A stretch of DNA of 64,000 bases, taken from positions 1-64,000 of the forward strand of contig DATHMF010000105.1 of NCBI GenBank assembly GCA_035487355.1. The letters are read 5' to 3'. This document shows positions 10,635 through 24,317 of this stretch, one piece after another; positions within the stretch are counted from its first letter, which is position 1, and every line of letters begins with the position of its first letter. The DNA comes from Terriglobales bacterium (GTDB lineage Bacteria; Acidobacteriota; Terriglobia; Terriglobales; Acidobacteriaceae). The notes under the pieces were generated by a model. That model saw only the letters and a program-made list of their open reading frames with translations, was not told where the DNA came from and ran no database searches. The translations under genes and the position numbers were made by a program.

Positions 10635-11102
10635 CTAACTTCCGAGCGGCGGACTGCTGGCTAAAGCCGGTTGGTCGCTTTCCATATGTATGACTCCATC
10701 CTCTGAGCTGAAGAAATGCCAGCAGCCCGTGCAGCTGGGTTGGATAGGATCGGCATTGATGGTGAATGAATCCAGTTTGCCTTCGTGTTTCTTGTGGAAG
10801 GCCCGGTAGGTAAACACGTATCCATTTCTGCGGTGGTCCGCCCATGTTCCGTTTGTGAGCCACTCATAATTCTGCTTAGACGACGTGGTTCCCTTTAGTT
10901 GCGACATCTGTTCAAGGCTGTCGGGATAATAGCCATATTCGGTCTGATACGTCGTCGCAGCGTTAACGATAGTACGGACGCCGACAATTGCCGAATCTGT
11001 ATTGCCGAGCTGTATGAACCGCGGCACAACAAAGGCAATCGCAACAACCAAACAGATAGTCGCGACGGCAACTATTGTAAAGATCGTCTTGTTCAGCTTC
11101 AT
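10635..11102 (-). CDS. Pilin-like membrane protein (short paralogue, no zinc ribbon)
   Basis: Encodes 155 residues starting MKLNKTIFTIVAVATICLVV, with AAGGG just upstream of the ATG. A single hydrophobic helix (~6-28) is followed by a pilin-like region: AIVGVRTIVNAATTYQTEYG and YYPDSLEQM, and near the end NADPIQPSCTGCWHFF and SSEDGVIHME. The same blocks occur in the next gene, so the two are paralogues. No prepilin peptidase site (Gly before Phe-Thr-Leu-x-Glu) is present, so it is probably a permanently membrane-anchored protein. It ends close to the ftsH terminator on the opposite strand. Function is unknown. Confidence 0.8.
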   Translation of the reverse strand: MKLNKTIFTIVAVATICLVVAIAFVVPRFIQLGNTDSAIVGVRTIVNAATTYQTEYGYYPDSLEQMSQLKGTTSSKQNYEWLTNGTWADHRRNGYVFTYRAFHKKHEGKLDSFTINADPIQPSCTGCWHFFSSEDGVIHMESDQPALASSPPLGS

Positions 11103-11166
11103 GTTCCCTTGGATGCACTAGTCCGATTCATTGTGAACGAATTTCTGTATCTAGACTAACTGGCAG

Positions 11167-11784
11167 CTATTGCAATGGGGGGCTCTCGGCTGAGGCCTGG
11201 TGGTCGATTTCCATCCTCACAACTCCATCCTCTGAGCTGAAATAATACTTCATGCCTGTACGGCCGGGTTGAATGGGGTCGGCGTTGATCGTGAACGCAT
11301 CATATTTGCCGTCGTGGTGCGAGTCAGAGGCCTGGTAAGAAAACACATATCCGTTTTTGGCACGGCTGGCCAGCGTTGCATCAATGAAGCCGGCGTGGTT
11401 CTCATCGGGTGCAGCATTACCCGGAGGCTGGGAAAGCTGATCGAGCGTCTGCGGATAATGACCGTATTCAGCCTGATATTGTATGGCTGCGGTAACGATC
11501 GTACGCACACAGGCAATTGCCGAAGACTGGTTAGCAGAAATTCGGGCCCTCATCAAGTTGGGAATGGCAATGGCAGCAACAATAAGAATCAAAGGGATTG
11601 CAAGCACAAGAATCGCGACCACCACCACGGCAATGACGATGGTCTTATCACTCGATTTGGCCTTTGCCGCTGGCGGGTAATAGGGCGCGGCGGCCGTGGG
11701 TAAGACGCTGGTATCGGCTCCGCACTTCATGCAGAACTTCTGGCCGTCGGCCGCGGACTCTCCGCATTGCGGGCAAAATCTCAT
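11167..11784 (-). CDS. Zinc-ribbon protein with pilin-like C-terminal part (paralogue 2)
   Basis: The ATG at 11784 is preferred because AGGAG lies seven bases upstream; it gives 205 residues. An N-terminal zinc ribbon (C4, C7, C18, C21; MRFCPQCGESAADGQKFCMK) is followed by a Pro/Ala linker and a hydrophobic helix (~49-74). That helix runs straight into IPNLMRARISANQSSAIACV, the segment found after the leader cleavage site in acidobacterial type IV pilins. The rest (TAAIQYQAEYGHYPQTLDQL, then NADPIQPG and SSEDGVVRME) matches the neighbouring paralogue. The ribbon sits where a prepilin leader would be, so classical processing is not expected. Function is unknown. Confidence 0.85.
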   Translation of the reverse strand: MRFCPQCGESAADGQKFCMKCGADTSVLPTAAAPYYPPAAKAKSSDKTIVIAVVVVAILVLAIPLILIVAAIAIPNLMRARISANQSSAIACVRTIVTAAIQYQAEYGHYPQTLDQLSQPPGNAAPDENHAGFIDATLASRAKNGYVFSYQASDSHHDGKYDAFTINADPIQPGRTGMKYYFSSEDGVVRMEIDHQASAESPPLQ

Positions 11785-11890
11785 GGTCTCACTCCTGTTG
11801 ACTGCAAACCAGCATTCATTATGAACCCACTTTGCAAAATTTAGTGCTGCTCCCCAGCTTCGTTTTCGGGTTTCTTTTTCTGCAGGATCT

Positions 11891-12544
11891 TTACTGCTGC
11901 TTATCCTGGCTGTCTTCCGATCCCAGAGGAGGACTTCCTGCCCCCGCAACTCTCTTGGAAACGCGGATGATTCCCGTTTGATCTAAGTAAAAATGACGCT
12001 CTCCCTGGAAATTAGAGACCGGATCCACATACAGCACAAAGGCCGTGGCATGGCCGGCGACATCCAGCGCGCGGGCATCGTAGGAAAAGCGATACCCGGA
12101 TTGCTCGGGCAAGGTCTGGGACGAATCTACCAGCGCCGCGCCAAATTCATTGGGCTCTCCGCTGGCACGCGGGCCCAGGAGCGCGAGGTCGGTGGGATAT
12201 CCGTGCTGGTATGTGTCGTGGTACACGGTCAAAGCATGGTTCAGTTTCTGCAGACTCTGGACCGCGGCCGCCTCGTTGGCGCTTATCTGTTTGCTAATGA
12301 TGGTGGGAACAGCTACGGCTGCAACAATCGCCAGGACAGGAATGGCAACAACCACCAGGATTGCACCCACGACCAGCCAAATCGTCTTGGAGCTGGTTTT
12401 GGCAGGAGTGGGAGGAGGGAACAACGGCGCCGGAAAGTTGCTGCTGGGGCCAACAGCGGGAATTGCACTTACATCCGTGCCACATACCATGCAGAACCTT
12501 TGATGATCCTGCGCTGTCTGGCCGCATTGTGGACAAAACCGCAC
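11891..12544 (-). CDS. Zinc-ribbon protein with pilin-like C-terminal part (paralogue 3)
   Basis: Starts at GTG 12544, with GAGG about eight bases upstream, and encodes 217 residues. The architecture matches the neighbouring gene: zinc ribbon C4, C7, C18, C21 (MRFCPQCGQTAQDHQRFC), a Pro-rich linker, a hydrophobic helix (~53-80), then ISANEAAAVQSLQKLNHALT and TYQHGYPTDLALLG, which resembles a pilin core. The C-terminal half has diverged (YVDPVSNFQGERHFYLDQTG) but keeps the pattern of a final SPPLGS, found in all three genes. With the two following genes it forms a tandem family on the minus strand. The job of the family is unknown. Confidence 0.85.
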   Translation of the reverse strand: MRFCPQCGQTAQDHQRFCMVCGTDVSAIPAVGPSSNFPAPLFPPPTPAKTSSKTIWLVVGAILVVVAIPVLAIVAAVAVPTIISKQISANEAAAVQSLQKLNHALTVYHDTYQHGYPTDLALLGPRASGEPNEFGAALVDSSQTLPEQSGYRFSYDARALDVAGHATAFVLYVDPVSNFQGERHFYLDQTGIIRVSKRVAGAGSPPLGSEDSQDKQQ

Positions 12545-13608
12545 CCTCTTGTCCTCGCAAAGAAGGTTTTAGCACATTTTCGAATCGTTAGCTCTTAAGC
12601 TTTTGCCTTTAGCTCTTAGCTTTCAAAAACAAAACCGCCGCAGATGCACGCAGACTAACACTGCTTCGGGAAAATTACTCAAAAAGCCTCTGCGTAACTC
12701 CGCGATCTCTGCGGTTTCACTTGTTTGTTTTGGGAAGAAAAATCAAGAGGAGACGAGAATCAAAAAGCTGAGAGCCAAAAGCTACTAAGAGCTTCTTTCC
12801 AAAATAAAAGAATCCCGAGGGGGCGGTTCACCAATTCTCCTCTGCCAGCAGCTCGCGTTAGACCCTCGCTGACCTGCTCTCGCAGATTGTGCGGCTTTCA
12901 CCGCGGCAAACTGCGCGCGATCATGCTCGGGCTCCGGGCTAACCACCAACCGGGAAAATCCGGTTAACTTCCTCGGGACTCTATACTGCCTTCAACAAGA
13001 TTTCCGTTCTCCTCACCCAGCAGATTGCTATAGACCCTCACCGACCCTCCGCCTTTTTCTGACTACGCCTTGCGGCGCAGCCCCCACCAAGCTTGCGGGC
13101 TTGATGGTTTTCTGCTCCCGAGCGCCGCTACGCTGTGGAAGCATTTGGCGGTGATCTAAGCTTGAGCCCCGGACGCACTACCAACTGGGAAAACTTAGAA
13201 AAATGTCAAAGAACGATTATGTTTTTACGCCTCTCAGTTTTTATGTCAATGAAATTATCGAGCTTTTATCGCCTTTGTTTTCACTAAGCTGCAGCTCGTC
13301 CACAGGCCGGTGCCGCAGATTTTGTGCAGGTGATTTTTTATTTTCTCCAAACGGCACAAATTGACGCGAATTTTGCAGCGTATTTTATTTACGCAATCGA
13401 ATAACTGCTTTGCCTGCGTGGAAAAATCGTTGTGCAAAAACTGTGCTAAGACAATGTTAATGCGGGTTACCCGACAAAAGAGCAATCGAAGATTTAATAT
13501 TCGAGATGCCCCTGTTGTTGGAATTGCGTGATTTCTCGCTCACAAATTACGTCAAACGATCACCAGAAAACCAACCTGCTTCTATGGGAAATATCTTCAG
13601 CGCTGTGG
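12545..13608. other. Long gene-poor intergenic stretch with degenerate repeats
   Basis: About 1.1 kb without a convincing gene. The left part (12600-12800) contains a copy of the dispersed CCGCAGAT-type repeat. Between about 12845 and 13195 two loosely similar blocks follow each other: each has CAGCAG, then TAGACCCTC, and ends in ACCAACYGGGAAAA. The right part (13200-13560) is more AT-rich and shows no reading frame with protein-like composition. Nothing else could be supported. Confidence 0.5.
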
Positions 13609-13675: not shown

Positions 13676-16600
13676 TCATTTTCCACCCTTGACCACATTG
13701 ATGTATTGTTGCTTGTTTTTCAACAGACTCTTGAGTTCGTCTTGAACCTGGGTTTGAAACTGGCTATCCGCTGATGCGCGTTCGGCAATGGCAGAAAGCA
13801 TGTCCAGTTTCTTCAGATTTGTCTCTATGTCATTCTTCTTATTCAACTTTTCTAAGTTATCAAGCTCCTTGTCATTCATCTCTATGCGGATCGCTTTCGC
13901 GGCCTCAGCAGAAAGTGCGAGCCCATATTGCTTAGCGGCCTTCACCAACGCTTTGTCAATCTGATCACTGACGTCGACGCCAAGTACTTTTTTGGTCACG
14001 CCATCACCGATGGGCGTGCACGCACCAAATTCACATCCTTGGCTGTTTGGCAACAATCCGCCAAGCAGGCTTTGGGGCTGAAGGTGTATAAAGCCGGGAA
14101 GCCCCAGGTTCTCGCTCAACGGTGGACGCGGACGGGGGTTGACTGTGCCATGGAAGACAGGATGAGGATGTCCTCCGCCAAACAAGAAGTGGATCAGCTG
14201 TCCAATCCCGAGAATCAGATCGATGATGCAAATTTCCGGATTACCCGTGGCCACGCCGATTGCGCAGGGACCGCCTCCGTCCAAGCCGGAGGGATCTCTG
14301 AAGTTGGCTGGGTTGCCGTTGACATAACCGTAGCGATTGAAGCTTTGCGGATTGCTCGGATCCCCTTCCAGCAGATCCGCGCTCATAAAGCGTCCCAGAC
14401 GCGGGTTGTAATAACGAAGATTGGCATAATCGAGACCGGACTCGAAATCGTGTTGGTAGCCGGTGAAGTGGATGGCGCTGTAATCAGGCCCGGAGCAGGA
14501 CAAGCCATCGCCGTAGATCTGGCTGGAGCAAACCTCGACCACCGAACCGGTCCAATCGGTCGTCACCCGGTCCGTCTGCTCCCAGTCGTTATAGGAAAAA
14601 TATGCGGCCGAATTTCCAGGAGCGTTGTTGTAGGAACCAATATGGGAACCGTCAAAGTAGTTCTCCGCCTGGGTCCATGTCCCCGAAGGTCCGACGGTTG
14701 CAACCACATTGTTCGCAAGATCGTAGACGAACTCAGAGACGCCCCCTGGAAGTATCTTGTGGACTCGTCTTCCGTCGACATCGTAGGTATAGGTTGCGGT
14801 CGAGCCGCCGTCTATGGCAATGATCCTGTTTTCGGCGTCATAGGTGAAAGTATGAAATCCATCGTTCGTAACGTTACCCAGAACGTCGTAGGTCACTCCA
14901 CTGCCATGATTGTTGGCATCAAAGGACTGCTGTACGCTGAGTGCGCCATTCTGATGCCAGCGATTGGCGTAAGCGTCAAAGTCCCAGGTATATCCGGTAC
15001 CGCTGTTAAGGCGCTTGAGGTCATCGTAACCAAAACTCAGGTTCCCCATCACGGAATCATTGCTTGAGGTGATGAGGTTATCGAGTCTGAGAGCATTGTT
15101 AAATGAATATATCGTGTTAACTGGGTGACTATCGGTGCCACCACTTAGACTGCCACTGTTGGGACTGAGGGTATAAGGCGCAGGAAACATGCTGCCGTAA
15201 ACGGAACTGTAGGTGAAGCTGAAAGCAATTCCATTGCCTACTGTTCCTAAATGCTTAGCCGTAAGAGTAATTTGCCCATTGGAAGCGCTGGCGCTAACGT
15301 CGGGCGAGCTAAAATTATTCACCAGCGACTGTGCCATCTGTTGTGCAGTAAATCCGCAGATGTAAGTGATCTGCGGTGTGGAAGCTGAACCTACACTCAT
15401 GCTGACGTAGCCGATGTCGCAGTTTCCGCTGCTGTCGCTATAGGGCTGTCCACTCAGTGTGATCGTGGCCTGGGCTGGCGCAACTCCAACCGGCGGAGCC
15501 CCTATGGTCTCTCGTTTCGAGCTCACCGAACCTCGTGGAGAGTATCCAATGGCCTCCACGACTCCGTTGCCATACGAAGCCTGTGTGCGACCGAACGGTC
15601 CGTAGTGGATACCCGAGATCAAAGTGCCGGGATGAGTAGAATCTGCCAAATTGCTCGTCATTCCGATGGTGCGTCCGCCGGTCGTTCCTCCTGAGTGGTA
15701 AAGGTAAGAATACGTGACGCCGGCCGCGCCATTCGTAAAGCTGGTGCGCGAAGAAGCCAGATTATATTGATAGCCCATGGTGGTGTAGCTGCCTGTCGCA
15801 AAAAGCCGGGGAGTAGATTGGTAGTCATAAAGCACATTTCCCATGGCATCGTAGTAAAAACCAGAACCATTGCCCCTGGGGCCCCGGGCAATTTTCGAAG
15901 TAAGCCTGCCGATTCCCATCGAACCAGAATGTCCAGCCATCGTGGTTTCATCGTAGTAATAGTTCACGGGCGGAGTCACGCCATCGTCGTAGCCCGTGCT
16001 GAGTAACCGGCCCAACGGGTCATAAGTGTAGGTCGTTGTCAGCAATTGTGTGGGATCACTTTGGTTGGGTTTAGGTCTCTTTCGAGTCTGTAGATTGTCG
16101 TTATCGTCATAGCTGTAGGACACAACAGAGGACTGACCATCCATTTCAGGAATCGCATCAGCCACCAGGCGCCCCAGGCTGTCATAGGCCTTGGTCCGGA
16201 CCGTGCGATTCCCCTGGTTGACCTGAAGCAAATCATCGAGAACATCGTATTGATAGATAGTCAAATAACCCGTGGCGGCATAATCCTGCCCGCACGCTGC
16301 CGTCGAACTGCTGCCAATATAGCTGGTGGAACTGACCTCACAAACGGAGGCAGTCCGCCCAAAGGCATCATATTGCTTTACCTTGGTTACGATGCCGCGT
16401 TCGTCATAGAACACCTGCGCTGCGTTATCAAAACCAAAACCGATGAAACTTTGGTCTGAGTGGGTAATTGTGTCAAGTCTTCCGAATGTATCGTAGGTAT
16501 AGGAATCTCCATTCCCTGAGCAAACTTTCGGGGTTGCACCGTTCGTCTGGTATGGATAGGAATTGAATTGCAACTGGCCGCGCGTATCATAGCACTGGTC

Positions 16601-18829
16601 CTGCACATTGAAAGTGCCTTCCTCGTTGGTAACACCTTTGCGGTCAGGACGGCCCAGGGTATCGAAGTGTATGTACGTCACCTTGGTTGTTCCTGACCCG
16701 TCGATCTGTTCGGTCCTGGTGTTGTAGGTTGGATCAGGGTAAGCGAAAGTAGTGTTACCCCCGCCCGGAGGGTTCGTGAGAGAGGTAAGACGTCCGAGGT
16801 TGTCATATCCGTAGCCGGTGGTCTGTGAGTTTTCATCGGTTGTGCTGGCGATCAGGCCACTGCTGAGGTCATAGCTGGTTTTGACAATATGCTGGGTTGT
16901 CGTCGGCGGGTTTGTGGATGCTGTATTCGGGGACTGGACTTGCGTCAAATATGCGTAGCCGTAAGCGCTGGAATACGCAAACGTGGTTTGCGCACCCAAT
17001 GGATCTGTCTGGCTGACTGCATTCCCAAGCTGGTCATAAGCTGAATGGCTTGAAATCCACCGGTCACTCCCTCCGTTGGTTCCTTGCAGCCAGCGTTGTA
17101 CGGTAGTCACGTTGCCGCGAACTAGATCGGTATAAGGGAAGTTCTGGTCATCATGCTGGGGAACTCCGTCAATATGAACAAGCCCAGGCTGAGGTTCGTC
17201 ATAGCTGATTTGGATTTGTGACCCGGGCTTTCCGGAGCTGTCTTTGATGACGACGCCGGAAAGCCGGTCAAGCATATTCTTCTGGATATATGCAGTATCG
17301 GTTTTATAGGAATAGTCCGTTTCCCGGTAAGGAACCGCCGGTGGAGCGCCGGTTGGATAATAGTCCCATTCCTTGACCGATGTTAGATTGCCATAGGCAG
17401 GGTTGTCGTAAGTGTATTCAGTCTTACTGCTCTTCCCATTGGGCAGGGTGAGCGTATTGCGGAAAGCTTTTATATATTGCGCTCCAGCGCAGTTCATGCC
17501 ACAGGGATTGCTGAAATCATAGTCCGTCGTTGCTGTAGCCGACAAAGATCGACCCGGGCTCCCGGGAGCGTTTGACCCGGTGTAATAATCCACTTGAGAG
17601 TTCCATGCTCCGTTGTTGAGAACAAAAGTGTAGACAATATCGTCTGCAAGTCTTGTCGCCGTCGCTGGACGGGTAACCGTCACTTTTTCCTGGCACCCGG
17701 TGCCGTTGGCGGCGCATTGCGAGATCACCGAAGGCGTGAATTGCCACGTTCCGCCATCGACAGCCATAGATGTAATCCAACGATTTTGGTTTTGATAGGA
17801 ATCCAGGAAATTGGAATAACCGTAGTTGATCTGCCCTCCGTTGGGAAGCGTAATGCTGGTTAATTCGCCATAGGCCCCTGCATCGTAATTGAAGGTATAG
17901 GATCCTCCATCCGGAAGTTGAATGCTCTGAATGACGGTTATGTTATCTCGAAACTCCGCGACGGCAGATTGTTGAAAGTGTGTCTGTACGAGAATCGTGC
18001 CTGTCGTGACGGTGTAGCGCGCGCGATTCCCCTGCCAGGTAAGCACATCATAGTAAGTCTGGTTCCCATTTTGCGTGACATTGACCGGTGACCGCTGCAA
18101 CGTATCCGTCAACAAGCCGCCATTGGTTCCTGCCGACAAATAGTTACCGTTCGAATCAGTAGGGCGCGGATAAACCTGGCTGCCATCTCTTGCATAGATG
18201 GTTATGTTGTTGTAGTTGGTTACAAATGCGTGCAGGCTGGAGCTGTCTGCCGCCATGGCATCAGCGTTCGGTTTGTCCTGGGGGCCAACGCCATTGGGAC
18301 ATCCTCCGCTGGGTGCCTGGAACGTTTGCAGGCCGTTGAACCAGTGCGACGTACCGTCCGGATCGGTATAGACCCAGGAACTATAGGAAGTTGCGCCCGG
18401 ATTGTTATTGACTCCATTGCAATATATTCCTGACGTTATGTTCGTGACCTTTCCGCTCAAAGGAGTTACCACTCGCCATCCTCCTTGTGAGTTGGGTATG
18501 TTGTCCGGCCTGAAACTATAGGCGACTTGGGGGTTGGCGATATTCACGATGTGCCAGATCCGGCTGTCGTATACCAGTTTCACATCGGCGGAAATGTTGC
18601 CGCGCTGCGGCAGTGAGCTCAAAGGAATTTCCAAATGCAAATTGCCGTTGCCCACATTGATAAAGCCGTTCTCGACCGGAATCTCCGTGGCAAATGACGG
18701 ATGCCCCGTAGCATAAATGTAGTCCTGCCCGTAGGATCTGGATGTCATCCAGAGCAATAAAGTGCAGCAAGAGAAAAATAATACTTTCCCTCGCAATGAC
18801 CCCTGCAGTTTGCGCCATGTAATCTTCAT
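13676..18829 (-). CDS. Exported RHS/YD-repeat protein
   Basis: The start at 18829 is chosen because GGGAG precedes the ATG by seven bases and a signal peptide follows (MKITWRKLQGSLRGKVLFFS...SYG); this gives 1717 residues. The protein has many YD repeats (YDxxGRLxxxT) forming a shell like those of RHS and TcC toxins. A ~120-residue insert without YD repeats (coding 15130-15500) interrupts them. The core ends with the RHS-associated pattern YYNPRLGRFMSADLLEGDP and RYGYVNGNPANFRDPSGL. After it comes a variable tip of about 205 residues rich in Lys, Glu and Leu, with no recognised toxin motif. No candidate immunity gene follows. Confidence 0.92.
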   Translation of the reverse strand: MKITWRKLQGSLRGKVLFFSCCTLLLWMTSRSYGQDYIYATGHPSFATEIPVENGFINVGNGNLHLEIPLSSLPQRGNISADVKLVYDSRIWHIVNIANPQVAYSFRPDNIPNSQGGWRVVTPLSGKVTNITSGIYCNGVNNNPGATSYSSWVYTDPDGTSHWFNGLQTFQAPSGGCPNGVGPQDKPNADAMAADSSSLHAFVTNYNNITIYARDGSQVYPRPTDSNGNYLSAGTNGGLLTDTLQRSPVNVTQNGNQTYYDVLTWQGNRARYTVTTGTILVQTHFQQSAVAEFRDNITVIQSIQLPDGGSYTFNYDAGAYGELTSITLPNGGQINYGYSNFLDSYQNQNRWITSMAVDGGTWQFTPSVISQCAANGTGCQEKVTVTRPATATRLADDIVYTFVLNNGAWNSQVDYYTGSNAPGSPGRSLSATATTDYDFSNPCGMNCAGAQYIKAFRNTLTLPNGKSSKTEYTYDNPAYGNLTSVKEWDYYPTGAPPAVPYRETDYSYKTDTAYIQKNMLDRLSGVVIKDSSGKPGSQIQISYDEPQPGLVHIDGVPQHDDQNFPYTDLVRGNVTTVQRWLQGTNGGSDRWISSHSAYDQLGNAVSQTDPLGAQTTFAYSSAYGYAYLTQVQSPNTASTNPPTTTQHIVKTSYDLSSGLIASTTDENSQTTGYGYDNLGRLTSLTNPPGGGNTTFAYPDPTYNTRTEQIDGSGTTKVTYIHFDTLGRPDRKGVTNEEGTFNVQDQCYDTRGQLQFNSYPYQTNGATPKVCSGNGDSYTYDTFGRLDTITHSDQSFIGFGFDNAAQVFYDERGIVTKVKQYDAFGRTASVCEVSSTSYIGSSSTAACGQDYAATGYLTIYQYDVLDDLLQVNQGNRTVRTKAYDSLGRLVADAIPEMDGQSSVVSYSYDDNDNLQTRKRPKPNQSDPTQLLTTTYTYDPLGRLLSTGYDDGVTPPVNYYYDETTMAGHSGSMGIGRLTSKIARGPRGNGSGFYYDAMGNVLYDYQSTPRLFATGSYTTMGYQYNLASSRTSFTNGAAGVTYSYLYHSGGTTGGRTIGMTSNLADSTHPGTLISGIHYGPFGRTQASYGNGVVEAIGYSPRGSVSSKRETIGAPPVGVAPAQATITLSGQPYSDSSGNCDIGYVSMSVGSASTPQITYICGFTAQQMAQSLVNNFSSPDVSASASNGQITLTAKHLGTVGNGIAFSFTYSSVYGSMFPAPYTLSPNSGSLSGGTDSHPVNTIYSFNNALRLDNLITSSNDSVMGNLSFGYDDLKRLNSGTGYTWDFDAYANRWHQNGALSVQQSFDANNHGSGVTYDVLGNVTNDGFHTFTYDAENRIIAIDGGSTATYTYDVDGRRVHKILPGGVSEFVYDLANNVVATVGPSGTWTQAENYFDGSHIGSYNNAPGNSAAYFSYNDWEQTDRVTTDWTGSVVEVCSSQIYGDGLSCSGPDYSAIHFTGYQHDFESGLDYANLRYYNPRLGRFMSADLLEGDPSNPQSFNRYGYVNGNPANFRDPSGLDGGGPCAIGVATGNPEICIIDLILGIGQLIHFLFGGGHPHPVFHGTVNPRPRPPLSENLGLPGFIHLQPQSLLGGLLPNSQGCEFGACTPIGDGVTKKVLGVDVSDQIDKALVKAAKQYGLALSAEAAKAIRIEMNDKELDNLEKLNKKNDIETNLKKLDMLSAIAERASADSQFQTQVQDELKSLLKNKQQYINVVKGGK

Positions 18830-19761
18830 GATCTTCTCCCTACAATTCTGGTTCTTGGTGATGGAAAGAACGGCTTGTTTCACAGAGAGGAATCCCCTCC
18901 GCTTGCCTGTGACCCTTTTAAACAGGCAGAGCACAGCAGGATTCCCCTCTCTATTCATCAAGTGCTGGTTTTAAGAAAAGTATTGGAAATTTTTTTTAGC
19001 TAAGGTAAGAAATGGCGGTTGATTGGGAGTAAGTCTTTATTTTTCAGTTGTTTGCCAAAACAGTTTCCCCGTTCTCAGTAAAAGACAAGTCTAACCACAA
19101 AGGCACAAAGGAAAACTGGCAAACTGAATACTGCTTGATACCACCCTGGTATCAAATGATTGATTTCTTGGAAACTGCGGGCCATCATTGTGCCAGACGT
19201 GTGTCTACGTTAAGCATTCAAGTATGCCCAGGCTTAGGCCGGGTAAGCTTTTGGTGAGCGCTTGTCCCGCGCGAACTAAAAGCGAGGGCGTAGCGGTTTT
19301 ACCGCGGAGCCCTTAGAAAGAAAGTTCTTTGACAATTCGTTGTCGGTGAATCGAAGCGTGAGCTTTCGGCGTCCTTGGGGGCCTGGAGCTGTTTCTTAGA
19401 CTGCCGGGTCCATTACTCCATTCTTAGTCGTAAGAAATTGATTGCTAAGGATTTAGAGTGGCGTCCACTACTCTAAGTAATGGGGGGGTGAGGACCTACG
19501 GAACAAGGGATTTAAGAGCAGTACTCGGACTTTCTTATGTACTCTCACCCCATCCGGGCAGACTAGCAGCAAGTCCCCTCCCCTGGATCGCTCTTCGCCA
19601 ATAATAACGCGGGGCAGACGCGATTCAGGGCACTCCAAACACTTGCTAGCAAGTGGGTTGGCGGCCCCACACAATCTTCTAAAAATCTGCGTTGATCTGC
19701 GGCGAAGGTCCTTATGCTTTTCTCAGTTCGAGACCCCGTCCCCTGGGCATTCCGCAAATTT
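18830..19761. other. Intergenic region with repeat copies and a palindrome
   Basis: About 0.9 kb between the RHS gene and the phosphate-binding/OmpA gene. It contains an AACCACAAAGGCACAAAGG repeat copy (19093-19111), a perfect 9-bp inverted repeat (19135-19155) and a copy of the CTGCGTTGATCTGCGG repeat (around 19685). Short reading frames on both strands lack protein-like features. No gene is called here. Confidence 0.5.
19135..19155. repeat. Perfect 9-bp inverted repeat
   Basis: TTGATACCA (19135-19143) and TGGTATCAA (19147-19155) are exact reverse complements with a 3-bp CCC centre. It has no T-run, so an operator or REP-like element is more likely than a terminator. Confidence 0.6.
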
Positions 19762-21288
19762 TCATTTTTTCAACCAGATTTCGACGCGGCGGTTCTTGTC
19801 GCGTCCGTCTTCGGAGTCGTTGGATGCTACGGGAAGTTCAGAACAAAAGGCCGCGGTGGTTGACGGCCGCACTCCCCGCAAAATGAACTGCTCTTTCACA
19901 GATTCGGCGCGCTTCTTGGAGAGATCACAATTCACGCGCGCGCTTCCTTTATTGTCGGCAAATCCGAGAAGGAAGATGTTGTCGCCGGAATAATGCAGAT
20001 CGGTCAAAAAGGTGACGACGCGGTCGAGATCATCTACCGCTTTGTTGTCCAGGTCGGATTTCCCGGCACGGAAGCGAAAATTCAACGACAACCTCTGCGC
20101 GCCCTCGATAAGCCGGCGGTATTCAGTCGGCGCACCAGTCGGAACGGGACCGGCAACCGGCTGCACGTTTTGGCCGACGAAGCCGATCTTCTCGACGATG
20201 TTTTGTCCCTCGCTGGATAAAGCGAAATTTATGAACTTGAGAGTCAGATCGTTGGGCGGGCTGGCAGGGGTATAAAAGAATAGGCGGCGTGAGAGCGGAT
20301 AATCTTCCGTCGCAACCGTCATGCGATTCGGCATGAGCGAGCGGCTGCCACTGTCAGAGACGGCAATGGCCTTGGCCGATTGAACGTAGGGCAACCCGAT
20401 GAAGCCAATAGCACTGGGATCTTTGGCAACGGAATCGGAAAGTTCGCGGCTATCTTCCACTCTGTGAGCGGAGGCGACCAGAGGTTTGCTGCCCAGCACA
20501 AGAGTTTTGAAGGTGTCATAGGTCCCCGACTTATCATTGCGCGCGAACACGTTGACGGGCGCACTGGGGCCGCCGACTTGCGACCAATTGTTAATTTCCC
20601 CGGTAAACAACTGCGCAACCTGACTTTTACTGAGCGACTCTACGGGGTTGGTTTTGCTTACGATCACGGCGATGCCGTCGAGTCCTAAGACGTGCTCGGA
20701 CGCGGGTGAGGTCATGTCCCCAAAGCTTGCGAGCTGGCCGGCTTCGGCGGGCTTGATCTTGCGCGAGGCCATGCCGACATCACAGGCGTTCTTCTGCAGA
20801 TCTTCAAATGCAGTTGCCGAACCGTGAGCGTGAATCTCAATCACCCGGGGAGCGGAGTCGCCCGGCATGATGCCCTGGACGCGCACCTCGTCCTCTTTGT
20901 CACCGGGAACGGTTTTTACTTCGGTTGCCCCCTGCTGCCTGAGAAACCCTTCAGCCAGGGCCGGCGCCAAAGCAGCGCCGATGGTGTTCGAGCCGCTTAG
21001 CTTGAGAATCGCTCCGGTAGAGGAAGCAGCAGCGTTACCATGAAGCCGGGCAGAAATCTGTGGCCAGAAAAAGTAGATTGCTCCTCCTGCGAGCACGATC
21101 ACCAGCAAGGCAACCACGGCCTGGACGGGAGACTTCCTCTGCGACTGCGGAGCTTTCCAGATCGGGCCCAGGGCCCGATTGCATTCCGGACAGGCGAATG
21201 CTTTGCCTTCTGCTATGGTGATGAGTTCACGGCTGTCGGCTTTATTGCACATGCCGAAATTGGTGCACTTTCCGGTACGGGTTGGCAT
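19762..21288 (-). CDS. Zinc-ribbon, PstS-like and OmpA-domain membrane fusion protein
   Basis: A 508-residue protein. Order: a short Cys-rich N-terminal domain (C8, C14, C33, C36) that could bind zinc; one membrane segment (~56-75); a PstS-like substrate-binding domain (~95-370), with LKLSGSNTIGAALAPALAEG and NKSGTYDTFKTL-type blocks; and a C-terminal OmpA domain (NFRFRAGKSDL to GRDKNRRVEIWL) expected to contact peptidoglycan. With the N-terminus in the cytoplasm, the binding and OmpA domains would lie in the periplasm. The gene begins 29 bases after the tubulin-like gene and is probably co-transcribed. No PstCAB genes are near, so a role in phosphate uptake is unlikely. Confidence 0.9.
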   Translation of the reverse strand: MPTRTGKCTNFGMCNKADSRELITIAEGKAFACPECNRALGPIWKAPQSQRKSPVQAVVALLVIVLAGGAIYFFWPQISARLHGNAAASSTGAILKLSGSNTIGAALAPALAEGFLRQQGATEVKTVPGDKEDEVRVQGIMPGDSAPRVIEIHAHGSATAFEDLQKNACDVGMASRKIKPAEAGQLASFGDMTSPASEHVLGLDGIAVIVSKTNPVESLSKSQVAQLFTGEINNWSQVGGPSAPVNVFARNDKSGTYDTFKTLVLGSKPLVASAHRVEDSRELSDSVAKDPSAIGFIGLPYVQSAKAIAVSDSGSRSLMPNRMTVATEDYPLSRRLFFYTPASPPNDLTLKFINFALSSEGQNIVEKIGFVGQNVQPVAGPVPTGAPTEYRRLIEGAQRLSLNFRFRAGKSDLDNKAVDDLDRVVTFLTDLHYSGDNIFLLGFADNKGSARVNCDLSKKRAESVKEQFILRGVRPSTTAAFCSELPVASNDSEDGRDKNRRVEIWLKK

Positions 21289-21317: not shown

Positions 21318-24317
21318 TTATTGTCTGGTTCCCAGGAGGACTACAGCAGCTTCTCCCGCGTTATAAAACATGCGATAGACCTTATCCGACGGATTCTTGC
21401 GCCTGGCCTTGATCTCTTCCACCTGCGACTGCACCGAGGCGCTCAAAGCCTCTCTCTTCTGCACGTGCAGATACTCTTTTTTCAGCAGCGGCTGAATGGT
21501 CGCCACCAGCGCGTCGAAGGTGAGCTTGTTGGATTCACTGATGGCCTCGTTGATATCACGTCCCAGAGAGACCGGAGGATTGTCTGCTCCTGCCTCGCCC
21601 TGATTGACCAGGTAGAGATTTTTGAGGCCGGTCGAGGGGTCCTCCAGGGTCTGCACCACGTGCATGGCTTTGCCGATCATCAGGTAGGCCAGGAACTTTC
21701 TGGGTTCAACGTCCTCCACGTAGAGGTTCGGCAGGGCCGGGCCTTCGCTTTCCAGGTGCAGCTCCATTCTGGCCTGCTCGGAGTTGCTGGCCCTGATGCG
21801 CTGCTCATATTTCTCGCGCAGGAATTCGGCTTGCTGGATGAAGCGAACCGGGAACAGATTGGTGATGTTCACCAGGGTGATTTCCCGGGCTTTGGCGTTG
21901 CTGATCACCTCGACCTTGGCTCCGGCCGCCGCCTTCTCAAATTCACTGCGCAGCGCCCCGAGAAATCCCGCAGCGTGGGCAGCCTCGGGGAGGATGATGG
22001 AAAGGCAGGAGACGAATCCCTCGCCCGGAAACGTGCCGGGGCCCTGGCGCGTGATCTCGGCCTGACTGAAGCGCAGATAAGGCCTAGCGCGGGAAACAAC
22101 ATCGGCGAGATACGCCCGCAGCGCCTGGGGATCTTCCTGATACTGGTGCTGCAGTCGCTCTAAGACGCTCAACTGCAAAATCCGCGCATCAGGAGAGGTG
22201 GCGGCAACATAGTTGTTGTGCGCCGCGACCACGTTTTTCAGGCTGGTGATTTCCAGAATGTCCGCAAACTTTTCTTTGGGAACGCGAAGATTGAAGCTGG
22301 CGAAGCCGTGATTCGCTCCCAGCAGCCGGGCCAGTGCGGCGCGCACGGTGGTGCTGTGCTTCTGCTGCTCGGCGCGGTCACGGACCACGGCTTTGACAAA
22401 GTTTTTGACCGCCTCGGGTTGATAGAAGCGGATGACCGGTTTCTGCACGCCGGCCTGGCCGGCATCGGAGCAGCGCTCGGCGACGCGTGCGGTGAAGTCT
22501 TTGATGACCTCAACCATCATGGCCGCGCAGTGATCAGCCTCTGAGGCCAGCATGGCCACCTCGCTGATGAGCGCCGGCAACAGCTTCACGGCAAATCCCA
22601 GGCCTTCGATGCGCGTGCGATAGATATACAACTGCTGCAGGGATTCGATCTGCGCATTCAGCAGGGTCTCGCGTTTCCCCTTGCCGGCAATCACGCCCAG
22701 GCGAGACCACTCGGCGGCATGGGAGGCGACGCGGGCTGCGGCCTCCTCTTCCATTTGCCGGTGTTTGGCGAGCTTGCCTTCCATCTGCTGCTCGCGCTCT
22801 TCGAGCGAGGCCAGAAGCGCTGCCAGAATGCGTGAGATATCATGCATAGACCGCAGGCCCGCGATCCATTCCTGGAAAAGCTCTTTTTCAATGCGTACGC
22901 AGAGTTCGCGGACGTAGCCGCCGATCTTCTCGCGCGGGGTCTCGTAAAAACTTTGCACGCCGACGTCGCGATAGTTCTGGGAAAAGGCGGCCTCGCAAAG
23001 CTTCGACAACTCCTCCAGCCAGACGCGCTCGTTTCTGTCGAACGACTCGTGGACGTGCGACATCAGGTTGGGCACCAGGTTGAGCCAGAAGGCGTTGATG
23101 GGCTTCCAGCGCTTGTTCTTGACCTCATCGGGCAAAATACCTTCGGAGAGGACCAGGTGCTCGTCTGACAGACACCAGCGCTGCAGTGTTTCCTTCAGGC
23201 GAACGAACTCGGTGAAATTCCGGGTGCCGGGACCTTCGGAATATCCGCGGGATTCGATCCAGTGATTGAATTGCAGTTGCAGGGCTGCCTGACGTGCGAA
23301 GGTGTAGGTCAGATACTCCTGGATCTCTTCTTCCGGATAGATAATCTGCTTGATGCCAAAGGTGAAGAACTGGCGGGAGCGCTCGGCATTGCGGGTGAAG
23401 GGAGATTCTTCGGCGCGGCTATCCATGTTCTCGAAGGTCTCCTGCTGTCGCAGAGAATCCCAGACCATGTCTTTTACGGCGACGATCTTCTGATATAGAA
23501 ATGCAGAAACCAGCTCAGGAATTTCCTTGTCCACATCAAGTTTGTTCTGGTCTTCGTTCTCGTCGGAAAACAGGTAACAGCAGTTGAATGGGTCCTGCTG
23601 CACGAGCCGGTCTTTCCTCTCGCCTGACAAGTCGTGCGGCTTGAAAGCGCCGACACTGAGCGCGTTCAGCTCCATCAGTGCTGCATAACCGTTGGCGTGG
23701 TAGTTGGCACCGGCACGGCTTGCGCCCGGATTTCGTTCCGGCAGCAAAGCATAAACCAGGATGCGGTAATGCTTGTCGGGATACAGCGCCCGGATCTGGG
23801 AAACAGCATCCACAACGCATCCGCTGCCGATGCCGCCCGCCAGACCACAGCAGACGTGAAACGTCACCGGGGCCGGACTGCCAGCTTCCATTTCCTTGAC
23901 CAGTGTCTCCACTTGCCAGCGGAACCAGGTCACGCCACCAGCAAACAACAGCCTTCCCAGACGCCGCTTCTGACCGCCAGTGATACCTCCGGCAGCAGCG
24001 GAGTTGAATACACTGCGAAACATTTCGCGGTCGCCGATCCAGGGGCTGATCCCCGGATAAACCTCAGGATTTTCCAATACCGAAGTCAGGTCCTCGCCTG
24101 AGATCTTGCTGAGCTGTACGTTATGGTCCACGACCTTCCATGGGCTGGTGGGATCTTCAGGAACCATACTCTCGTCGCTGGAGTCTACGTAGAGATAGCG
24201 GACATTCACCCCCACAGGGCCTTCACTGCGGAAGTTCTGACAGACCGTCTTGCGTAAATAGCGCAAGACCTTTCCGCCGGTTCCACCGAGTCCTATGACG
24301 AGGTGATTATTGATCAT
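21318..24317 (-). CDS. Tubulin-like GTPase (Tubulin_2 family)
   Basis: A 999-residue predicted cytoplasmic protein starting MINNHLVIGLGGTGGKVLRY. The N-terminal domain has a glycine-rich nucleotide loop (G11-G15) and a tubulin/FtsZ-type signature AGGIGSG (161-166), with GGITGG nearby. These are hallmarks of the Tubulin_2 family, a divergent group of FtsZ/tubulin relatives. The middle and C-terminal parts are long and mostly helical, including a Glu/Gln/Arg-rich stretch that may form a coiled coil. The gene is first of a two-gene unit with the PstS/OmpA fusion. The tail and mode of polymerisation cannot be judged from sequence. Family assignment is good; biological role is open. Confidence 0.88.
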   Translation of the reverse strand: MINNHLVIGLGGTGGKVLRYLRKTVCQNFRSEGPVGVNVRYLYVDSSDESMVPEDPTSPWKVVDHNVQLSKISGEDLTSVLENPEVYPGISPWIGDREMFRSVFNSAAAGGITGGQKRRLGRLLFAGGVTWFRWQVETLVKEMEAGSPAPVTFHVCCGLAGGIGSGCVVDAVSQIRALYPDKHYRILVYALLPERNPGASRAGANYHANGYAALMELNALSVGAFKPHDLSGERKDRLVQQDPFNCCYLFSDENEDQNKLDVDKEIPELVSAFLYQKIVAVKDMVWDSLRQQETFENMDSRAEESPFTRNAERSRQFFTFGIKQIIYPEEEIQEYLTYTFARQAALQLQFNHWIESRGYSEGPGTRNFTEFVRLKETLQRWCLSDEHLVLSEGILPDEVKNKRWKPINAFWLNLVPNLMSHVHESFDRNERVWLEELSKLCEAAFSQNYRDVGVQSFYETPREKIGGYVRELCVRIEKELFQEWIAGLRSMHDISRILAALLASLEEREQQMEGKLAKHRQMEEEAAARVASHAAEWSRLGVIAGKGKRETLLNAQIESLQQLYIYRTRIEGLGFAVKLLPALISEVAMLASEADHCAAMMVEVIKDFTARVAERCSDAGQAGVQKPVIRFYQPEAVKNFVKAVVRDRAEQQKHSTTVRAALARLLGANHGFASFNLRVPKEKFADILEITSLKNVVAAHNNYVAATSPDARILQLSVLERLQHQYQEDPQALRAYLADVVSRARPYLRFSQAEITRQGPGTFPGEGFVSCLSIILPEAAHAAGFLGALRSEFEKAAAGAKVEVISNAKAREITLVNITNLFPVRFIQQAEFLREKYEQRIRASNSEQARMELHLESEGPALPNLYVEDVEPRKFLAYLMIGKAMHVVQTLEDPSTGLKNLYLVNQGEAGADNPPVSLGRDINEAISESNKLTFDALVATIQPLLKKEYLHVQKREALSASVQSQVEEIKARRKNPSDKVYRMFYNAGEAAVVLLGTRQ

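Follow-up and report, generated by a model that had tools for sequence, protein, structure and literature searches.

Can a pilin fold be taken out of the filament and put to use in the membrane? The question is raised by three tandem genes on the minus strand of a 64,000-nucleotide stretch (the window) of contig DATHMF010000105.1, from an acidobacterium-like genome (Terriglobales bacterium). They lie in the order 12544-11891 (P0002; 217 amino acids, GTG start), 11784-11167 (P0001; 205 amino acids, ATG start), and 11102-10635 (P0003; 155 amino acids, ATG start). P0002 and P0001 consist of a zinc ribbon, a linker, a long helix, and a pilin-like headpiece; P0003 has a short basic N-terminus, a helix, and a pilin-like headpiece with a CxxC motif, and no ribbon. 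None of the three has a prepilin leader. The layout agrees with the original prediction, made from this DNA by eye, of three tandem pilin-like genes, one of them with the helix and without the ribbon: the three frames have a C-terminal part in common, P0002 and P0003 being 39% and 52% identical to P0001, a similarity that also speaks for their being coding. That prediction numbered the genes by plus-strand coordinate; by transcription order the ribbon-less gene comes last.

Zinc ribbon, leaderless helix, and pilin fold

P0001 and P0002 both begin with MRFCPQCG and carry the four cysteines C4, C7, C18, and C21. Residues 3-24 of each protein (11713-11778 in P0001 and 12473-12538 in P0002; these and all features below are on the minus strand) match Pfam Zn_Ribbon_1 (PF13240) with E-values of 1.2e-7 and 6.2e-7 and with 31.7 and 29.5 bits, above the cut-off of 25 bits, which confirms the predicted ribbon in two paralogues. 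A six-frame translation of the window contains the pattern C..CG-x6-12-FC..CG at two places only, the P0001 and P0002 ribbons; the ribbon would bind zinc, to judge from its sequence. Matches to PHROGs were weak at best and fell on the ribbon or N-terminal part. The proline-rich linker expected ahead of the membrane helix is present in both ribbon proteins, with several prolines in each and more in P0002.

The hydrophobic helix of P0001 terminates in AAIAIPNLMRARISANQSSA. The long helix as delimited by the AlphaFold model and the PilA4 alignment (model residues 46-107; 11464-11649) contains AIAIPNLMRARISANQSSA, and IPNLMRARISANQSSA, the acidobacterial-pilin signature that had been read after the helix, is found in this protein. 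The long helix of P0002 (model residues 53-112; 12209-12388), placed by its AlphaFold model and by register, has a transmembrane half, which includes a proline, and a headpiece half. In P0003 the helix is shortened and preceded by MKLNK; its hydrophobic stretch, read from the sequence and the register, covers residues 6-26 (11025-11087).

The prepilin cleavage motif is missing from all three proteins, as predicted: none matches N_methyl (PF07963) at E-values up to 1, and none has a [GA]x4[ED] motif upstream of the conserved proline. When the register is anchored on this proline as position 22 of the mature pilin, P0001, P0002, and P0003 have V, V, and K at position -1 and I, L, and I at position +5, and thus neither Gly-1 nor Glu5; the leader, Gly-1, and Glu5 that make up a class III signal peptide are absent from the trio. 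According to PMC4471445, the Gly that ends the leader is critical for prepilin processing, Glu5 mutants are unable to form homopolymers yet capable of entering compound filaments, and the prepilin lies with its leader inside, its helix across the membrane, and the remainder outside.

An AlphaFold model of P0001 built with 49 homologues has a mean predicted local distance difference test score (pLDDT) of 91.3 and a predicted template modelling score (pTM) of 0.71, with helix 46-107 followed by a four-stranded sheet and a ribbon region at pLDDT about 77. The P0002 model (pLDDT 87.1, pTM 0.66) has the same order of elements; both ribbon proteins are thereby predicted to have a helix of ~60 residues and a four-stranded sheet. 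The long helix with antiparallel sheet that characterizes the pilin fold is found in both models, with weaker structural matches for P0002. The headpiece of P0001 (11170-11463), drawn from the model, Foldseek, and structural alignment, ends in SPPLQ as in leadered relatives; for the sheet of the P0002 headpiece (11894-12208) pilins head the Foldseek list, though with weak scores. Among solved structures P0001 most resembles type IV pilins and pseudopilins, and its leading Foldseek matches are all type IV pilins (6xxd PilA4, E 0.0042, probability 1.00; also ComP, PilV, and others). VIA-align superposes P0001 on 6xxd PilA4 with Z 10.5 and a root-mean-square deviation of 3.5 over 121 residues; among the 994 chains aligned, five others have a Z of at least 8, and each of them is one of the listed pilins. 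Because model residues 52-201 align with chain residues 1-125, residue 52 on residue 1 of mature PilA4, the ribbon and linker occupy the place of the leader. A structure prediction devoid of a pilin-like fold had been named as an outcome that would speak against the idea; both ribbon proteins are instead modelled as pilin-like. The proposed scan with pilin-family profiles succeeded in part, with T2SSG (PF08334) above cut-off in P0001 only (24.0 against 21 bits). In the P0003 headpiece, CTGC stands opposite RTGM of P0001 and may be a CxxC motif or disulphide of the periplasmic domain.

Pilins of the same genome and related fusions

A search of the window's own genome (G000) with P0001 gave 18 matches. 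Leadered pilins were read on contigs C31, C54, and C63 and at the ends of C36 and C88, and the genome has one prepilin peptidase match and six matches to T2SSE (the ATPase of type IV pili and type II secretion systems), three of them on C88. Because peptidase, ATPases, and leadered pilins are all present, the missing leader is a property of the trio genes. C31 also carries L005, a ribbon-DUF4190-pilin protein and the only occurrence of DUF4190 in the genome, and several transmembrane helices precede the pilin core in frames L010 (C86) and L011 (C21). The end of C31 and the starts of C107, C36, and C88 lie inside near-identical leadered pilin genes, as if a repeated gene had broken the assembly. 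A two-zinc-ribbon protein (L013, C25:83881) stands ~0.8 kb after a T2SSE ATPase match.

Within the phylum, 143 of 396 genomes gave a match to P0001 at 1e-8; most of these matches start at residue 59 and cover the pilin core alone. The frames collected with a pilin core number 261, sorted by pattern into 215 with a leader and 46 without; among the latter the core lies more than 60 residues into the frame in 30 and near or before the frame start in 16. These 16 comprise truncated or interrupted frames, P0003, two leadered frames that the pattern overlooked (L009 and L036), and a few irregular cases. The survey of zinc-ribbon/pilin fusions suggested with the original prediction found them in at least 10 of the 396 genomes (G000, G025, G054, G066, G118, G127, G219, G257, G286, and G307), a lower bound that rests on the rows selected for reading. 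By eye the fusions of G118, G127, and G286 are GspG-like; that of G066 has DUF4190 and no in-frame ribbon, and the gene of G257 is interrupted. L154, L155, and L153 (in G127, G118, and G286) join a ribbon, a proline-rich segment, and a transmembrane helix to a GspG-like core, possibly an independent case of the same fusion.

Profile A5, made from seven ribbon-DUF4190-helix rows and run over 398 genomes of the taxonomic family, matched 97 genomes at 1e-12, many rows being leadered pilins that match the helix end alone. Leaderless zinc ribbon-DUF4190-pilin proteins, with rows spanning query positions 1-2 to 148-151, were counted by hand from the listed rows in at least 33 of the 398 genomes, at least five of which had supplied the profile. 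Thirty loci from this search contain 32 core frames, of which 30 show the ribbon pattern and not one shows the leader pattern. Set A7 (P0001, P0002, and 30 of these frames, the two ribbon-less ones excluded) has Pfam matches to DUF4190 in 29 of 32 members, Zn_Ribbon_1 in 27, CD225 in one, and N_methyl in none, and set A4 (49 members, including the three window proteins and the fusions L048 and L059) matches N_methyl in 44. The four ribbon cysteines are invariant in all 32 rows of A7, partly by construction since rows were chosen via the ribbon pattern or profile. P0001, P0002, and P0003 have no Pfam match to DUF4190 (PF13828). Glu5 is missing in all 31 fusion frames long enough to cover the position, and P0001, P0002, and 24 of 31 fusion frames have a helix proline at position 11, as against 0 of 215 leadered frames, a set picked by a pattern that itself includes Glu. 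DUF2950 is matched (best E 9e-6) by the C-terminal end of some pilins among L009, L011, and two leadered members of A4, and this family may include a relative of the pilin headpiece.

The modules ahead of the core vary: a ribbon alone, ribbon-DUF4190, ribbon-CD225 (one member), several transmembrane helices (L010, L011, L161, and L166), or a DUF3352-like region (L065 and L148). A ribbon-CD225 gene stands beside some DUF4190 fusions (a cluster of six loci, one confirmed by Pfam), and CD225 and DUF4190 look interchangeable in these arrangements. L230:373-1164 is a ribbon-CD225 (dispanin-like)-pilin fusion, and at L229:790-1188 a ribbon-CD225 gene adjoins a ribbon-DUF4190-pilin gene. When neighbours shared by the DUF4190 fusions were sought, the biggest group of flanking frames (27 loci) looked on inspection like antisense frames of the fusion gene and was discarded. 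L065:2150-4471, L148:1468-3762, and L113:2363-4615 are frames of 774, 765, and 751 amino acids, stop to stop, in which a large N-terminal region precedes a C-terminal pilin core; in L065 and L148 that region resembles DUF3352 at a score below cut-off, and L113 comes from a Planctomycetota record. Secretion of the N-terminal region would put the headpiece on the wrong side of the membrane, unless the short hydrophobic stretch fails to span it.

Kinship was drawn from a second tree of 86 rows, made by a quick method with Shimodaira-Hasegawa-like approximate likelihood ratio test (SH-aLRT) supports, which left out six long or divergent rows or groups (L056_4298, L057_4515, L010, L011, L123, and L166) and kept 42 of 85 canonical rows. 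The three window cores fall in a clade of eight (SH-aLRT 97) with L170, L171, L173, L182, and L195; the first four are DUF4190 forms (L173 without an in-frame ribbon), and L195 has one CxxC pair and no DUF4190. P0001 and P0003 are the closest pair (SH-aLRT 99), and P0002 is on a long branch. The remaining DUF4190 forms are spread over three other groups (supports of 99 by SH-aLRT, 84, and 98 by SH-aLRT); in the approximately unbiased test a single clade of all leaderless rows gave p 0.0496 with 26 leaderless against 85 leadered rows and p 0.079 with 44 against 42, values under which the leaderless forms may have one origin or several. Because the window cores group with proteins that have a ribbon and a two-helix DUF4190 before the helix, the window form is more likely a ribbon-DUF4190-pilin protein minus DUF4190. 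The proposal that a ribbon replaces the prepilin leader therefore stands insofar as a ribbon lies N-terminal to a leaderless helix, but probably not as a simple exchange of leader for ribbon.

Possible roles of the trio

From the architecture, fold, and signal-peptide loss that the computation establishes, and from the kinship that it suggests, a working picture can be proposed. By homology to prepilins, the N-terminus would lie inside and the headpiece outside; the ribbon and linker would remain cytoplasmic in place of the leader, the first half of the pilin helix would span the inner membrane once, and the second half would stand with the beta-sheet headpiece in the periplasm. Prepilin peptidase would be unable to cut the trio proteins because the Gly-1 site is absent, and, with neither a free N-terminus nor Glu5, they would not be expected to join a filament by themselves. 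The headpiece may bind an envelope partner (pilin, ligand, or wall) while the ribbon makes protein contacts inside. The trio would be part of a broader group of acidobacterial pilins that lack a leader and have a zinc ribbon, mostly followed by a DUF4190 membrane domain, before the helix; the window pair would have lost or never had DUF4190, and P0003 would be without the ribbon too.

On balance, and at somewhat better than an even chance, the trio is taken to be a set of membrane-locked, non-assembling pilin paralogues, likely acting as a bitopic adaptor or sensor; this role is placed first and regulation of pili second. A headpiece serving as the extracytoplasmic domain of membrane proteins fits the variety of partner modules. 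The idea that pilin cores were reused as membrane anchors stands for the leaderless helix with its N-terminal ribbon; because the headpiece is retained along with the helix, the core is more than an anchor. It is rather improbable, though conceivable, that leaderless N-terminally modular pilins form a separate class, inner-membrane signalling pilins spread through Acidobacteriota that would pass pilin or envelope information to the cytoplasm via the zinc ribbon.

Several results weigh against membrane-locked paralogues acting as adaptor or sensor. Foldseek gave no match for P0001 under E 0.001 and weak support for P0002 (best ComP, E 0.029). No orthologue of the trio was found in the single congener examined (G396, 76% complete), which has the DUF4190 form and leadered pilins only. 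Among the window open reading frames (ORFs) read, no type IV pilus gene adjoins the trio. P0003, with its short basic N-terminus, may simply be a secreted protein that is processed by signal peptidase I.

The trio might instead regulate or plug type IV pili, its leaderless helix docking on mature pilins or the assembly platform to block, cap, or report on assembly. The homology of its headpiece to leadered pilins of its own genome is consistent with this, as is the entry of Glu5 mutants into compound filaments mentioned above; a link to pili is suggested by L057 alone, where a ribbon-transmembrane-pilin-like gene follows a leadered pilin gene of the same orientation, its start 125 nt downstream, and less closely by L056, where a close relative lies 2.5 kb after such a pilin gene. 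This type is rare, however (3 of 396 genomes at E up to 1e-5, one by the ribbon end only and two by the headpiece end), and in the stretches read neither the trio nor any other fusion locus stands beside pilus genes; regulation of pili is considered unlikely. Better placed, though still doubtful, is a generic membrane module, in which the headpiece would be one extracytoplasmic domain among many carried by ribbon membrane proteins such as TcaA, in envelope stress or ligand sensing and with no link to pili. The varied partner modules argue for it, as does a weak match of the N-terminal region of P0001 to the TcaA model (18.8 bits; cut-off 550); yet most members keep the whole pilin helix and signature and not a generic transmembrane helix. 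Least probable is that the genes are functionless tandem duplicates whose leader was lost by decay. The sporadic distribution of the form without DUF4190, the long branch of P0002, and the ribbon-less P0003 with its shortened helix would suit decay, but all three frames are open with conserved C-termini, both ribbon genes retain their cysteines, and the architecture recurs in many genomes. The ratio of nonsynonymous to synonymous substitution (dN/dS) is also low, ~0.17 for P0001/P0003, with dS close to saturation, and 0.26 for the orthologous DUF4190 fusions L005 and L167 (0.37 in ribbon and linker, 0.17 in DUF4190, and 0.24 in the pilin part), the latter from G396; each of these two fusions lies near a prephenate-dehydratase-like gene (by eye).

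The trio genes are separated by 106 nt (P0002/P0001) and 64 nt (P0001/P0003). The P0001 start was taken as the ATG at 11784, the mechanical ORF list beginning the frame at a TTG at 11949. By eye, a Shine-Dalgarno-like stretch precedes all three starts: GAGG (12553-12556) 8 nt before the P0002 GTG, AGGAG (11792-11796) 7 nt before the P0001 ATG, and the weakest at P0003. A promoter scan gave two sites against 1.8 expected and so no information; terminator-like sites numbered eight against 2.8 expected, the one strong site lying on the plus strand behind ftsH. An operon with pilus genes was looked for and none was seen in the window. Directly upstream of the trio, by eye, is a gene for an RHS-repeat-like protein of 1761 amino acids (13676-18961, minus strand). 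Farther on, at 19762-21288 and 21318-24317 (minus strand), a protein with a Cys-pair N-terminus, a transmembrane-like stretch, PBP_like_2, and OmpA adjoins a Tubulin_2 protein; the former is a further Cys-module membrane protein of the same window.

Comparison with known systems

No description of zinc ribbon-pilin fusions, and nothing on DUF4190, was found in searches of the open-licence literature of PubMed Central (PMC). If the proposed reading is true, the pilin fold has left the filament and been reused in the membrane, in genomes that also encode a prepilin peptidase and pilins with a leader. Annotators should not count such proteins as pilus subunits, although they match T2SSG or pilin profiles.

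TcaA (NF053815) is like the ribbon proteins in its N-terminal ribbon ahead of a transmembrane helix, and differs in that the window proteins have a pilin headpiece as external domain and score 18.8 and 12.0 bits against its cut-off of 550. TcaA is described in PMC10611510 as zinc ribbon domain-containing. GspG (T2SSG, PF08334) is approached by P0001, which exceeds the Pfam cut-off; under TIGR01710 the trio scores 28.7 (P0001), 20.4, and 14.4 bits against a cut-off of 88.85, and has no leader. With type IV pilins (N_methyl, PF07963) the likeness extends to the AIPN..R..AN helix motif, the headpiece fold, and a C-terminus homologous to leadered acidobacterial pilins, whereas the leader, Gly-1, and Glu5 are absent and the ribbon proteins have an N-terminal module instead. 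The modular pilins PilB and PilC of Streptococcus sanguinis and CpaL of Caulobacter carry their extra domains at the C-terminus and keep the signal peptide (PMC6916266; PMC12607857). A pilin core joined to an extra domain is found in both; in the window proteins the added module is N-terminal, in the place of the signal peptide. The trio thus looks like an unnamed kind of membrane-locked pilin, a modular pilin with the added module at the opposite end.
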